In this document: positions 20,496 through 60,365 of the stretch, one piece after another
How positions within the stretch are numbered: position 1 is the first letter of the stretch
Layout: each line of letters starts with the position of its first letter
From: Chromobacterium violaceum ATCC 12472
Lineage (GTDB): Bacteria; Pseudomonadota; Gammaproteobacteria; Burkholderiales; Chromobacteriaceae
Length of the DNA stretch: 64,000 nt
Assembly: GCF_000007705.1 (NCBI RefSeq)
Contig: NC_005085.1
Span: forward strand, 186,001-250,000
Reading direction: 5' to 3'
The notes under the pieces: generated by a model
Told to the model about the DNA's origin: nothing
What the model saw: the letters and a program-made list of their open reading frames with translations, nothing else
The model's database searches: none
Program-made: the position numbers and the translations under genes

Positions 20496-20855
20496 CGGCG
20501 TCTTTCCCTGCCGCCGCCGCGGCAAGGCCGGGCCTACGAAAACCATGCGTGCCTCTTCGCGGTGCCGGCCTGGCCGCCGGCGCCATTCGTTCGGCCTGAA
20601 CCTTCCGGCCGCCTAGCCCGCCAGCGCGCCGGAAAACCGGCGCTGCGCTTATCCACAGGCCGGCTTGCGCTCGGGATTTATCCACAGCGCCTCACCGCGG
20701 CGGGCCGCGGGCGTCCTCTCCAGGCCCATCCAAGCCAAGGGACGGCCATGACCCGCTTCGCCCTTTGCCGCGCCGGCGCCGGTCCGCAGATGGCCCCGCG
20801 CCCCATGACGGCGTATCCTGAAGACATCATCGTCCGCATGCCGGGAGGCGCGAAC
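20496..20855. other. Gap between VOC gene and MgtC-like gene
   Basis: No gene is supported in these 360 bp, although one frame stays open into the next gene. It holds two perfect DnaA boxes (20649-20657 and 20678-20686). Confidence 0.6.
20649..20686 (+). repeat. Pair of DnaA boxes spaced 29 bp
   Basis: Two perfect TTATCCACA sequences begin at 20649 and 20678, in the same orientation, 29 bp apart start to start. Similar pairs occur at 22977-23014 and 60327-60365. Confidence 0.8.
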
Positions 20856-22976: not shown

Positions 22977-23014
22977 TTACCCACAGGCATCGCGCCGCGG
23001 AACACTTATCCACA
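22977..23014 (+). repeat. Pair of DnaA-like boxes spaced 29 bp
   Basis: TTACCCACA (22977, one mismatch) and TTATCCACA (23006, perfect), 29 bp apart in the same orientation, lie just after the stop of the hypothetical membrane gene. Confidence 0.7.
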
Positions 23015-33233: not shown

Positions 33234-33949
33234 GCGCGCTGCGGGCGCTGGTGGTCGACGACGAGGCGCTGGCCTGCGACCGGCTGCGCCAGCTGCTGGC
33301 CGACTGCGGCGTCGAGCAGGTCGATTGCCTGGCCGACGGCCAGGCGGCGCTGGACTGGCTGGCGCGCCATCCGGTCGACGTGCTGCTGCTGGACATCAGC
33401 ATGCCCGGCCTGGACGGCATCTCGCTGGCCCGGCAGCTGCGCCAGCAGGCGCTGGCCCCGGCGCTGGTGTTCAGCACCGCGCACGACCACTTCGCGGTGG
33501 AGGCGTTCGAACTGGACGCCGCCGACTACCTGCTCAAGCCGGTGCGGCGCGAACGGCTGGAACAGGCGCTGCGGCGCGCGCTGGCGCGCCGGCAGGGCCA
33601 GCCTCAGACCAGCTTCACCGTGCGCCAGCGCGGCCGGCTGCTCAACGTGCCCTTCGCCGACGCGCGCTACCTGAAGGCCGAACTCAAATACGTCACCCTG
33701 GTCACCCCCGACAGCGAATACCTGCTGGACGACGCGCTGGTGGCGCTGGAACAGCGTCTGGGCGATTCGGCGCTGCGCATCCACCGCAACTGCCTGGTGA
33801 TGCGCCACGCGGTGCAGGAACTGTGCCGCGGCGGGGAGAACGACGGCGACGAACAATGGATTGTCAGACTGCGCGACATTCCGGCGCCGCTGCCGGTCAG
33901 CCGCCGCCAGATTCACGCGCTGCGCGCCGCGCTGAGCGTATCCAATTGA
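33221..33949 (+). CDS. LytTR-type response regulator (AlgR/LytR family)
   Basis: The 242-residue product has a receiver domain (D13-D14, D58 in LLLDISMPGLDG, T86, K106) and a C-terminal LytTR DNA-binding domain (about 138-240, ARYLKAELKYVTLVT and HRNCLVMR). It belongs to the AlgR/LytR group; in other proteobacteria AlgR controls pilus, alginate and biofilm genes. No AlgZ/LytS-type kinase is adjacent. The ATG overlaps the TPR-regulator stop by 13 nt, with no strong site of its own. Confidence 0.88.
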   Translation: MGALSALRALVVDDEALACDRLRQLLADCGVEQVDCLADGQAALDWLARHPVDVLLLDISMPGLDGISLARQLRQQALAPALVFSTAHDHFAVEAFELDAADYLLKPVRRERLEQALRRALARRQGQPQTSFTVRQRGRLLNVPFADARYLKAELKYVTLVTPDSEYLLDDALVALEQRLGDSALRIHRNCLVMRHAVQELCRGGENDGDEQWIVRLRDIPAPLPVSRRQIHALRAALSVSN

Positions 33950-34054
33950 TTACGTACTATTACTTAAAACCGGCTTTACCCGATTTATTGCTAAAAAATA
34001 GGCACCTGTTCTTATAGAATCGTTCACTGCTGAATATATGTCGATGGTTTTAAC

Positions 34055-35646: not shown

Positions 35647-36075
35647 TTACGCCAACGTCAGCTCCACTTCGATATTGCCGCGCGTGGCGTTGGAATACGG
35701 GCAGATGCCGTGCGCGGCCTCGATCAGCCTCAGGCCGGCGTCGCGCTCCAGCCCGGGCAGCGATACCGCCAGCTTGGCCGCGATGCCGAAGCCGTGGGCG
35801 ATCGGCCCGATCGACACCTTGCCGGTTACCGACACCTCGGCCGGCAGCCGCACGCCGGCCTGCTGGGCGGCCACCTTCAACGCGCCGATGAAGCAGGCGG
35901 AATAGCCGGCCGCGAACAGCTGCTCCGGATTGGTGCCGTCGCCGCCCAGGCCGCCCAGCTCGCGCGGGGTGCTCAACTTCACCTGCAGCGCGCCGTCGCT
36001 GGATTCGGCCCGGCCGTCGCGGCCCCCGGTGGCGGTGGCTTCGGCGGTATACAGTACTTTTTGCAGAGGGTTCAT
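35647..36075 (-). CDS. ohr: Organic hydroperoxide resistance protein Ohr
   Basis: Thiol peroxidase that reduces organic and lipid hydroperoxides using dihydrolipoyl/lipoamide partners. The 142-residue product has both redox cysteines (Cys61 in [10 protein letters not shown] and Cys125 in [12 protein letters not shown]). It lies directly downstream of ohrR with a palindrome in the 86-bp gap, so expression is very likely OhrR-controlled. Confidence 0.96.
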
Positions 36076-36125
36076 CTGGCTCTCCTTGGCTTGACGCCGT
36101 TGCGATTAAAATAATGAGCTATTTA

Positions 36126-36137
36126 ATAGTGCACTAT
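36126..36137. promoter_or_regulatory. OhrR operator candidate upstream of ohr
   Basis: ATAGTGCACTAT, a perfect 12-bp palindrome, lies about 50 bp upstream of the ohr start, just past the end of ohrR. Its core is identical to the one upstream of ohrR. Confidence 0.7.
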
Positions 36138-36161
36138 CTAACTATCAAAACCCTGACGGGT

Positions 36162-48152: not shown

Positions 48153-49426
48153 CATTTTTCGCTTCCTGCGGACATCGCTTCGCGGATCAGCGCCAGCATT
48201 CTCTCGCTGGCGCCGCGGTGGGCGTCGCGGAAACGCACGGCGCCCTGGCGCATCGCCTCGCCGGCGGCCGGATCGTCCATCAGAGACAAAGCCGTCGACA
48301 CCAGCGCGGCCGCGTCTCCCACCTGGCGGCCCGCGCCGGCCGCCAGCGAATCGGCGGCGGCCTGCTGGAAATTGAACACCGACGGACCGAACAGCGCCGG
48401 CACGCCCACCTGGGCCGGCTCGATCAGGTTGTGGCAACCGTAAGGCAGCAGGCTGCCGCCGATGAAGGCGACGTCGCAGGCCCCAAGGTAGCCGAACATC
48501 TCGCCCATGCTGTCGCCCAGCCATACCCGGGTGTCGGCGGCGATGGCGGCGCCGCCGCTGCGGCGCTGCGATTTCAAGCCGCGTTCGGCTGCCAGCTTTT
48601 CCACCTCGTCCCAGCGTTCCGGATGGCGCGGCACCAGCACCAGCAGGGTGTCGCCGACGGCGGCGCCGGCGGCCAGCCAGGCGTCCAGGATCAGCGCTTC
48701 TTCGCCGTCGCGGGTGCTGGCGCACAGCAGCGCGCGCCGCCCGCCGGCCATGGCGCGGAAATCGGCGGCCAGATGACGTTGCGCTTCCGGCACCTCGATA
48801 TCATATTTGCTGCTGCCGCAAACAGAGACACTCCGAGCACCTAACTGCCGCAAACGATCGGCATCTTCAGCCGTTTGCGCGGCAACGGCGGTCAATTTAG
48901 CGATTGCCGGAGAAATCAGGCCGGCAATCTTGCGATAACCGTTCAGCGATTTTTCAGACAATCTGGCATTGGCCAGCAGCAACGGAATCCGCTGCGCCGC
49001 GGCCGCGTGGATCAGGTTGGGCCAGATTTCGGTTTCCATCAGCACGCCGCAGCGCGGCCGGTAGGCGCGCAGAAAATCGGCGGCGGCCTGCGGATAATCG
49101 TAGGGCAGGTAGCGGACCTCGGCATCCGGGTACAGCTGCTCGGCGGTGGCGCGGCCGGTCGGCGTCATCTGGGTCAGCAGCAGCGGCGCGTCCGGCCATT
49201 CGCGGCGTATCGCCGCCACCAAGGGCTGGGCGGCGCGCGTTTCGCCGACCGACACCGCGTGGATCCAGATCGCGCCGGTCGCGCTGGGCGACAGGGCCTG
49301 GCCGAAGCGCTCGTCCCAATGCTCCAGATAGGCCGGCGCCTTGCGCGCCCGCTTCTTCAGATAGCGCCGCACCAGCGGCGTCAACGCGCGCCACAGGCCG
49401 TTGTACAGCGCCAGCTGCCAGCTCAT
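48152..49426 (-). CDS. waaA: 3-deoxy-D-manno-octulosonic acid (Kdo) transferase
   Basis: Adds Kdo to lipid A precursor at the inner membrane. The 424-residue product has an N-terminal membrane anchor region, IWIHAVSVGETRAAQPL, and the C-terminal glycosyltransferase lobe with IGGSLLPYGCHNLIEPA. The ATG at 49426 overlaps the waaC stop (ATGA), so waaC-waaA is one unit. It ends at the terminator shared with pheC. Confidence 0.96.
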   Translation of the reverse strand: MSWQLALYNGLWRALTPLVRRYLKKRARKAPAYLEHWDERFGQALSPSATGAIWIHAVSVGETRAAQPLVAAIRREWPDAPLLLTQMTPTGRATAEQLYPDAEVRYLPYDYPQAAADFLRAYRPRCGVLMETEIWPNLIHAAAAQRIPLLLANARLSEKSLNGYRKIAGLISPAIAKLTAVAAQTAEDADRLRQLGARSVSVCGSSKYDIEVPEAQRHLAADFRAMAGGRRALLCASTRDGEEALILDAWLAAGAAVGDTLLVLVPRHPERWDEVEKLAAERGLKSQRRSGGAAIAADTRVWLGDSMGEMFGYLGACDVAFIGGSLLPYGCHNLIEPAQVGVPALFGPSVFNFQQAAADSLAAGAGRQVGDAAALVSTALSLMDDPAAGEAMRQGAVRFRDAHRGASERMLALIREAMSAGSEK

Positions 49427-50382
49427 GGCCAATCCAGCCTCGTTTGCAACGCCGCCAGCGCCTCGTCCACGGTCGGACACTGGCCGATATTGCCCAGATT
49501 GGTCGCCCACGGCGTTTCCACCACGCCGGTCTGCTGCGGATCGGTATCGGTATAGATGGCCGCCACCGGCACGTTCAGGGCATTGGCCAGATGGACGAGG
49601 CCGGTGTCGACTCCGACGACGGCGCTGGCGTTGCCCAGCAGACCGGCGGCCTCTACCAGGCTCATCTTGGGCGCCACCACGGCGGCCGGCAGCCTGGCGG
49701 CCAGCCTTTGCGCGCGCGCCTTTTCCTTGTCGTTGCCCCAGGGCAGCACCGTCACCATGTCGTGCTGAGTGGATAACCTGGTGCCCAGCTCCACCCAGCG
49801 CGCTTCCGGCCATTCCTTGGACGCGCGGCTGGTGGCGTGCAGCAGCACTGCGTAGCGGCCGCTGAGCATCCAGCCCGGCCGCTCGCCGCGGCGGATGCCG
49901 AACTGCGGCGGACCGTCCGGCGCGTAGCCGAAGCTGAGGCCGAACAGCAGCCGGTTGCGGTCTATCGCCGACAGCTTGCGCGAAACCTTGTGCTTCTTGT
50001 CGTAAAACAGGCTGGCCAGCGCCTCGCGGGCACTGCCCCAACCCAGGCCAGCCAAAGGGGCGCCGGCCCAGCGGGCGGGGATCGCGCTCTTGATCAGACC
50101 CTGGCTGTCGAGCACCAGGTCGAAGCGGGCGTCGCGCAGTTTTTGCTTCAAGGCCTTCAATTCGCGCCAGGCGGACGGCTGCCACAAGCGGCGGCGCCAG
50201 CTGCGCCAGCTCAAGGTCAGCACCTCGTCCACCTGCGGATGCAGGCGGGCGATGTCGGCGAAGCTTTCCTCGGTCAACCAGCTCAAGCGGATATTCGGGT
50301 AATGCGTCTTCAGCTCGGTAATGGCCGGCCAGGTGTGGATAAGGTCGCCCATCGACGAGGTGCGCACGATCAGCACATTCAT
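49423..50382 (-). CDS. waaC: Lipopolysaccharide heptosyltransferase I
   Basis: Adds the first heptose to Kdo2-lipid A. The 319-residue product is GT9 family: MNVLIVRTSSMGDLIHTWPA at the start, HATSRASKEWPEARW and GVDTGLVHLANALNVPV in the C-terminal donor-binding lobe. I chose the ATG at 50382; two more in-frame ATGs lie just upstream. A TACAAT box overlaps the earliest of these, so the message may be nearly leaderless. A perfect DnaA box lies inside the 5' end. Confidence 0.95.
   Translation of the reverse strand: MNVLIVRTSSMGDLIHTWPAITELKTHYPNIRLSWLTEESFADIARLHPQVDEVLTLSWRSWRRRLWQPSAWRELKALKQKLRDARFDLVLDSQGLIKSAIPARWAGAPLAGLGWGSAREALASLFYDKKHKVSRKLSAIDRNRLLFGLSFGYAPDGPPQFGIRRGERPGWMLSGRYAVLLHATSRASKEWPEARWVELGTRLSTQHDMVTVLPWGNDKEKARAQRLAARLPAAVVAPKMSLVEAAGLLGNASAVVGVDTGLVHLANALNVPVAAIYTDTDPQQTGVVETPWATNLGNIGQCPTVDEALAALQTRLDWP
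50334..50342 (-). promoter_or_regulatory. DnaA box inside waaC
   Basis: A perfect TTATCCACA on the reverse strand, within the first codons of waaC, at the left edge of the DnaA-box cluster. Confidence 0.6.
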
Positions 50383-50444
50383 CATGGCGCGCATTGTACC
50401 CGAGCGGGGCTGTGGTTAACCAAGTAAAATCCCTCGTGACCGGA

Positions 50445-50615
50445 TGTGGATAAACAGCTGTGAATAAGTTCGGCTGGATTTATCCACAATTCACCCAACC
50501 ATTGCGCAATGCAATAATCCAATGCCTATCAACAGGACAAACCTATGAAGCAAAGGGCTTTTTCGTAATTGTCCACATCAAAAGGCTACCTTCAGCAGTT
50601 TCATCATTTTATAGT
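50445..50615 (+). repeat. DnaA-box module, copy 1
   Basis: Contains TGTGGATAA (50445), TTATCCACAA (50480), CAAAC (50538), TTGTCCACAT (50569) and CAGTTTCATCATTTTATA (50596). The same elements occur in the same order in copy 2, at offsets of 257-258 bp, with small indels between. Confidence 0.75.
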
Positions 50616-50701
50616 TGCGCTAATGAAAAACCGCTGAGACGAGACAAGCTGCACGCAAAAAAAGTCTTGCACAAGCAAGTCGGCAAAACTGGATCAACAA
50701 C

Positions 50702-50872
50702 TGTGGACAACCATGAGTCTGCAGAAAACGTAAAAGTTATCCACAACTGCTCACCCGATTGACGGTAGCCCTGACAACAGCTTTGCACGACTTCCAAACA
50801 TTTGAAAACAAAAGGATAAATGCACTTATCCACATGAAGAAGCCGTCTTCTACCAGTTTCTTCATTTTATAA
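50702..50872 (+). repeat. DnaA-box module, copy 2
   Basis: Contains TGTGGACAA (50702), TTATCCACAA (50737), CAAAC (50795), TTATCCACAT (50826) and CAGTTTCTTCATTTTATA (50854), aligned with copy 1. It ends directly before the glycosyltransferase start. Confidence 0.75.
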
Positions 50873-50890
50873 ATGGGAAAACATGAAAAG

Positions 50891-51649
50891 ATGCGAGTCG
50901 CAATCAGCGCGGTGCTTATCACCAAAAACGCAGGCAAACAGCTTGAGCAATGTCTGCAGAGCTTGAGCTTCGCCGACGAGATCGTGGTTGTGGATTCCGG
51001 CAGCAGCGATAGCACATTGGCAATAGCCTCAGCCTATAAGGCGAAAGTTATCCACCAGGAATGGCTGGGATTCGGTCCGCAGAAGCAATTCGCGGTCAGC
51101 CAGGCCAGCCACGACTGGGTGCTGTGCCTGGATGCGGATGAATACCTTTCTGAAGAATTGTCCTTGTCTATCAACAAGATACGGGAAAATCCACAGGCGG
51201 CCGCCTACCGCTTCCCGCGCTGCAACCGTTTCATGGGCCGTTTCCTGAAACACGGCGAAGGCTACCCGGACTGGTCGCTGCGCCTGTTCGACCGCCACCG
51301 CGCGCGCTGGTCTGACGACGCGGTGCACGAGTACGTGATCTGCGACGGTCCTGTGGAAAAGCTGGCCGGCGACCTGATGCACGAATCAGGCGAAGACATC
51401 GCGCTCTACTTGTCCAAGCAGAACCGCTACACCTCGCTGCAAGCGGAGCAACTACATGCGCGCGGCAAGAAGGTCGGCGCCGGCAAGCTGCTGTTCAGCC
51501 CGCTGCTGCGCTTTTTCAAGTTCTACTTCGTCCGCCGCGGCTTTCTGGATGGACTGCCCGGCCTGGTGCACATCTCGATCGGCTGCTTCAACAGCTATAT
51601 CAAGTACGCGAAGCTGATCGAACTCCGCCGTCTGGACAAAGACCGCTGA
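50891..51649 (+). CDS. Family 2 glycosyltransferase (LPS core type)
   Basis: The 252-residue product has an N-terminal GT-A fold (MRVAISAVLITKNAGKQ, VVDSGSSDST) and the metal-binding DAD motif in VLCLDADEY (D81, D83). It resembles WaaE/LgtF-type enzymes that add a beta-glucose to heptose I of the LPS core, fitting its place near waaC-waaA. The exact sugar and linkage are not proven. The ATG at 50891 is used; an ATG at 50873 would add six residues. No strong ribosome site precedes either. Confidence 0.88.
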   Translation: MRVAISAVLITKNAGKQLEQCLQSLSFADEIVVVDSGSSDSTLAIASAYKAKVIHQEWLGFGPQKQFAVSQASHDWVLCLDADEYLSEELSLSINKIRENPQAAAYRFPRCNRFMGRFLKHGEGYPDWSLRLFDRHRARWSDDAVHEYVICDGPVEKLAGDLMHESGEDIALYLSKQNRYTSLQAEQLHARGKKVGAGKLLFSPLLRFFKFYFVRRGFLDGLPGLVHISIGCFNSYIKYAKLIELRRLDKDR

Positions 51650-60326: not shown

Positions 60327-60365
60327 TGTGGATAAAGTCGAGAACGGACGGTGGCTTGTGGATAA
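60327..60365 (-). repeat. Pair of DnaA boxes spaced 30 bp
   Basis: Two perfect TGTGGATAA sequences (reverse complement TTATCCACA) at 60327 and 60357, 30 bp apart in the same orientation, just after the DUF2789 stop. Confidence 0.8.

Follow-up and report, generated by a model that had tools for sequence, protein, structure and literature searches.

The bipartite origins of H. pylori and B. subtilis are made of two DnaA-box clusters with dnaA between both parts, and the origin of E. coli lies away from dnaA. The DnaA-dependent oriC is already known, and so are origins distant from dnaA, such as that of Synechococcus lividus PCC 6715, which lies far from dnaA according to an excerpt of DoriC 10.0 (PMC6323995). 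Excerpts of two further papers describe a basal unwinding system composed of a DnaA box, a spacer and DnaA-trios (PMC8287927) and the double DnaA boxes of E. coli, in which the pairs are 2-3 bp apart (PMC11317965).

We analysed a stretch of 64,000 nucleotides of the Chromobacterium violaceum ATCC 12472 chromosome (the window) and describe in it an AT-rich gap, at 50395-50890, whose sequence marks it as almost certainly the core of the single, main, present-day chromosomal oriC. This gap resembles other bacterial origins in having a box cluster in an AT-rich gap, a skew minimum, a dif-like site opposite and conservation in relatives, and it is unlike them in adjoining waaC instead of dnaA and in carrying two direct copies of a three-box module with a tail. 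The literature searched, in excerpts, yielded no description of the tandem two-module plan, of the link to waaC or of the fixed-gap box doublets described below. Excerpts of PMC3135505, PMC1193525, PMC3899952 and PMC3566124 gave no report of the position of the Chromobacterium origin; the first of them gives an Ori-Finder oriC with eight boxes for Laribacter.

The DnaA-box array beside waaC

An earlier note on this DNA had described perfect and near-match DnaA boxes in an AT-rich gap, and all of them were found again, in numbers far above chance. Perfect TTATCCACA boxes lie in the gap at 50445 (-), 50480 (+), 50737 (+) and 50826 (+), and boxes with one mismatch at 50411, 50459, 50569 and 50702; the fifth perfect box that the note had placed inside waaC, at 50334, is also there, on the (-) strand. 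In the window, 10 perfect boxes are observed against 0.11 expected from dinucleotide shuffles. The genome, a single contig of 4,751,080 bases, contains 37, against 15 for the reversed pattern, and five of the 37 fall within 501 bp, at 236,334-236,834 of the genome. With up to one mismatch allowed, this locus has nine boxes per 520 bp and the runner-up site three, in a scan of 800 kb of the 4.75 Mb that included all of 36-436 kb; genome-wide placement refers to perfect boxes only. By both measures the locus is an outlier in box density, a cluster well over background as is expected of an oriC. Nowhere else in the 800 kb did the count exceed three such boxes per 520 bp, so that this sample offers no second candidate for the origin.

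The features of the locus are listed below in window coordinates. Unless another basis is given in brackets, each rests on the box search and on the relatives described further on.

50395..50890, no strand: proposed oriC core, the AT-rich gap with waaC and the glycosyltransferase gene diverging on its sides (GC, skew minimum, conservation of the array)
49423..50394, (-): waaC-like heptosyltransferase gene, the constant neighbour of the array (Pfam Glyco_transf_9, E 1.1e-51)
50334..50342, (-): outlying perfect DnaA box in waaC, offset -60 (most relatives, though not all, carry a box between -54 and -60)
50411..50419, (-): conserved weak box TTAACCACA
50445..50453, (-): module 1 box a, perfect
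50459..50467, (-): module 1 extra box TTATTCACA
50480..50488, (+): module 1 box b, perfect, 35 bp from box a
50569..50577, (+): module 1 box c TTGTCCACA, 89 bp from box b
50578..50620, (+): AT-rich tail of module 1 CTTCAGCAGTTTCATCATTTTATAG, putative unwinding element (repeat D5, tails of the relatives)
50702..50710, (-): module 2 box a TTGTCCACA
50737..50745, (+): module 2 box b, perfect, 35 bp from box a
50826..50834, (+): module 2 box c, perfect, 89 bp from box b
50835..50878, (+): AT-rich tail of module 2 CTTCTACCAGTTTCTTCATTTTATAAAT, putative unwinding element (repeat D5; conserved better than the tail of module 1)
50873..51649, (+): family 2 glycosyltransferase gene (Pfam Glycos_transf_2, E 2.4e-19)
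51048..51056, (+): outlying box TTATCCACC, offset +654 (most relatives have one at about this offset)

The closest named relatives of waaC are from Chromobacterium species (74-93% identity). For the glycosyltransferase gene, the ATG at 50891 appears from the sequence to be a likelier start than 50873. A box near +654 is also present in the five Chromobacterium loci that lack the glycosyltransferase.

Both modules follow one plan: a box on the (-) strand, 35 bp, a box on the (+) strand, 88-90 bp, a second (+) box and then a conserved AT-rich tail. That the gap consists of two imperfect copies offset by 257-258 bp, as had been proposed, is borne out by repeats at offsets of 257 and 258 bp that were detected mechanically between the two copies. 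It is borne out as well by an alignment of the copies with their boxes masked (as N): its score of 85 is better than that of all 1000 shuffles of one copy, in which the masking letters were shuffled singly (mean 48.4, sd 5.5, maximum 67).

GC makes up 0.43 of 50395-50872 and 0.67 of the window as a whole, and the lowest-GC 478-bp stretch of the window falls in the gap (0.414), the next one being at 0.554. Among 100-bp stretches, those at 50793 and 50514 rank second and third least stable of the window in duplex stability, and short stretches of lower stability are also present elsewhere in it. The boxes are in this way adjoined by an AT-rich, unstable region, another feature of an oriC. Two low-stability stretches in the window, 33939-34038 and 36047-36146, have no DnaA box of up to one mismatch.

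Strand skew, the dif-like site and dnaA

The gap is at 236.4-236.9 kb of the genome, which puts about 236 kb between it and dnaA. The numbering of the contig begins at dnaA (base 245), and dnaA, dnaN and gyrB stand together at its start (Pfam). Such a group is the usual place of an origin and, together with the numbering, would suit a main origin at dnaA, with the gap as a secondary, ancient or plasmid-derived one. GC skew, however, does not change there. It is negative in all 11 samples taken from 2.75 Mb onwards, across the contig end, as far as 20 kb, and in nine of the ten blocks between 36 and 236 kb (the exception, 136-156 kb, is slightly positive, +0.007), and it is positive in all ten blocks of 236-436 kb and in all nine samples of 0.5-2.5 Mb. 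Cumulative skew reaches its minimum at 239 kb, within a plateau that spans about 234-245 kb. No change of sign was found at dnaA, where the 20-kb samples on both sides share it, and the 3.3 kb around the contig start contain a single box of up to one mismatch.

A search with a dif consensus gave a sole match, with two mismatches, at 2,619,359 (zero for the reversed control). This dif-like site misses the antipode of the gap (2,612 kb) by 7 kb and that of dnaA (2,376 kb) by 244 kb. The skew switch and a position roughly opposite dif and the terminus, both expected of an oriC, are found at the gap and not at dnaA. With one box in 3.3 kb and a constant skew sign, we rejected dnaA as the site of the main origin, and consider a merely secondary, ancient or plasmid-derived origin at the gap to be improbable in the extreme. 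Of the roles that the earlier note had offered (DnaA reservoir, secondary or ancient origin, control of the neighbouring genes), that of an origin stands, and its qualification as secondary or ancient does not, because skew, dif-like site and conservation point to the main one.

Dense strong boxes far from dnaA would also be expected of a datA-like site, either a reservoir of DnaA or a place of its inactivation, near the origin but off it. The gap, though, lies within a few kb of both the skew minimum and the point opposite the dif-like site, and a reservoir alone would leave the skew switch unexplained. A datA or DARS locus binds DnaA away from the origin and alters its nucleotide state, and for the gap its place at the skew switch argues against such a function. 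A datA-like site is for us a very unlikely explanation of the array, which we regard as most probably the origin.

Two observations concern the region of dnaA itself. A transposase-type gene (L072, 5504-6664; Pfam rve_3, rve and HTH_21) lies about 4 kb downstream of dnaA, and among 20 spread samples the lowest GC (0.567) is that of the contig's initial 20 kb.

Conservation within and beyond the family

The comparison set consisted of 62 loci upstream of a waaC orthologue, from 60 distinct family genomes of ten genera, two genomes being present twice. The 61st family genome (G046), with no orthologous waaC match, was left out, and it is the one exception to the adjacency of waaC orthologue and array, which holds in 60 of 61. 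When the module was searched for by its order, strands and spacings, with up to two mismatches per box, exactly two modules were found beside waaC in all 62 loci (60 genomes), 244 to 340 bp from each other, and in 800 kb of the C. violaceum genome only the two of the gap matched. Both copies are kept in every locus compared, and this conservation in relatives is again what an oriC should show. Neither of the outcomes that the earlier note had named as refuting, an ordinary box density or a gap that no relative conserves, was obtained. The boxes of C. violaceum stand at offsets of about -60, 17, 51, 65, 86, 175, 308, 343, 432 and 654 from the start of waaC; most relatives keep most of them, strand included, and the whole set shifts where the waaC start differs.

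Both neighbouring genes diverge from the gap with boxes upstream of each, and DnaA of E. coli also regulates transcription (PMC11317965, in excerpt), as would suit DnaA-controlled promoters for waaC and the glycosyltransferase. Yet a glycosyltransferase match (E up to 1e-5) is absent in 11 of the 62 loci, where both modules are intact, and control of this gene is therefore unlikely as their main role. The skew and the dif-like site also speak against promoter control, to which we give next to no credence as the explanation of the array; it may be an extra role beside that of origin.

Ten of the 13 relatives with one or two contigs were sampled for skew, in four blocks each. The two blocks nearest to the array were negative and positive, as at the gap of C. 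violaceum, in nine of ten, the exception being G059 (inner left block, +0.0036). All four blocks were as expected in seven, that is, in all except G059, G013 (outer right block, -0.0235) and G033 (sign reversed in the two outer blocks). In relatives with both genes on the same contig, waaC is about 14-296 kb from dnaA.

Outside the family, we followed the inverted pair of perfect boxes 35 bp apart, which occurs in 24 of a sample of 399 genomes of the order: eight of the own family, five of family f51 and 11 of three other families. In f51 the pair adjoins waaC in five of five genomes, three of them with a glycosyltransferase match too; a third box stands 87-90 bp on in all five loci, and two modules are present in four (up to two mismatches). 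In G260 of this family all four blocks show the skew switch as well. In G152, also of f51 (L239, about 1411-1628), the array adjoining waaC contains runs of boxes spaced at about 11-12 bp, denser than in Chromobacterium.

In the other three families the pair adjoins dnaA in 11 of 11 genomes, with a third box at module distance in one (one mismatch) or two (up to two mismatches). The 35-bp pair alone is therefore not specific, and we rejected it as a marker for the order. Nor is the link with waaC general, since 13 distant waaC loci (L152-L167 without L153, L158 and L160), among them Silvimonas, Polynucleobacter, Pseudomonas and other distant matches, hold at most two boxes of up to one mismatch per 520 bp. 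The five loci of family f44 have same-strand boxes 23 or 32 bp apart; dnaA adjoins two of them, and a waaC match was found in none of the five. An inverted pair of perfect boxes 27 bp apart was observed in L029 (about 1501-1536; genome 3,645,337-3,645,372), and a 27-bp pair of the same orientation in at least three relatives among the matches listed (G001, G002, G003).

Tails, box doublets and a model of initiation

The tail after each third box is likely to be an unwinding site. The family consensus of the module 2 tail is CTTCTACCAGTTTCTTCAATTTA. Under the strict trio rule, as given in the excerpt of PMC8287927, a box is followed by a spacer of 0-16 bp and at least three trios. The third boxes of C. 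violaceum are followed by trio runs of 1 and 2 only. In the family the rule holds for 14 of 60 module 1 tails and 23 of 60 module 2 tails, no enrichment over shuffle means of 40% and 33%, and in f51 for five of nine. A spacer of up to 28 bp raises the count to 47 of 60 for module 1, more than in any of 200 shuffles (maximum 73%), and to 36 of 60 for module 2, which is inside the shuffle range. Since shuffles do as well under the strict rule, we rejected strict DnaA-trios as a reading of the tails and do not claim trios for them.

DnaA boxes also occur in the window as dispersed doublets:

20649..20686, (+): doublet of perfect boxes, gap 20 bp
22977..23014, (+): doublet, gap 20 bp, one box with one mismatch (one-mismatch search)
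60327..60365, (-): doublet of perfect boxes, gap 21 bp, some 10 kb away from the origin

A search of the 61 family genomes for two direct perfect boxes, with gaps of 16-25 bp allowed, gave 156 pairs in 37 genomes (six of the ten genera) and zero control matches. Among the 150 pairs listed of the 156, the gap is 20 bp in 102 and 21 bp in 48. When gaps of 11-31 bp were allowed, all 21 pairs from the 13 genomes that represent the family in the order sample were at 20 or 21 bp; outside the family, five of the 38 pairs listed have such a gap, and one control match was seen (G369). Of the 14 genomes of the family assembled in one or two contigs, eight carry doublets, 37 pairs in total, which are not independent because many are probably homologous between genomes. 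Their median position is 2.3% of the replichore from the gap, with 24 within 10% and none beyond 50%. They face the gap in 31 of 37 cases, against 28 of 37 for dnaA, and their median distance is 56 kb to the gap against 246 kb to dnaA. With 45 pairs added from the origin contigs of draft genomes, 70 of 82 face the gap; in C. violaceum, five of seven do. That the doublets form a system for DnaA titration or recharging is a guess.

At the proposed origin, DnaA would occupy the strong boxes in both direct copies of the module, and its assembly, on the same strand as the third box, would extend into the conserved AT-rich tail. The duplex would be opened at the tail, and the DnaB helicase would then be loaded for two forks, with divergent transcription of waaC and the glycosyltransferase gene supplying negative supercoiling to the gap. 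In this scheme we infer DnaA binding, the unwinding role of the tails and the participation of both modules. A more far-reaching version, possible although we rather doubt it, is a twin origin, where a DnaA complex could form on each module and melt the tail next to it, perhaps one per fork, and the 20/21-bp doublets, close to the origin and facing it, would be a dedicated system of DnaA titration or recharging tuned to that origin.

The proposed position places the origin for Chromobacterium and its family, so that numbering based on dnaA would be off by about 14-296 kb, and it bears on replication timing, gene dosage and growth-rate estimates based on sequencing. An origin in two copies across ten genera would offer a natural test of the minimal origin and of two unwinding sites for two forks, and the doublets could expose a system of DnaA control outside the E. 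coli and Bacillus models.

Compared with the described systems, the locus shares its two clusters with the bipartite origins of H. pylori and B. subtilis, but the Chromobacterium copies are direct repeats within a single gap of 0.5 kb. As far as the excerpted source goes, the origin of S. lividus PCC 6715 is similar in being a box cluster off dnaA; it is a single case, whereas here a plan with waaC as constant neighbour extends over a family. The double boxes of E. coli, as excerpted, have a fixed pair spacing like the doublets of the Chromobacterium family, with a gap of 2-3 bp instead of 20-21 bp. Finally, the modules resemble the system of PMC8287927 in that each third box precedes a spacer of some 13 bp and then a T-rich strand that is conserved, and differ from it in that the strict trio rule is not enriched in the family of Chromobacterium.
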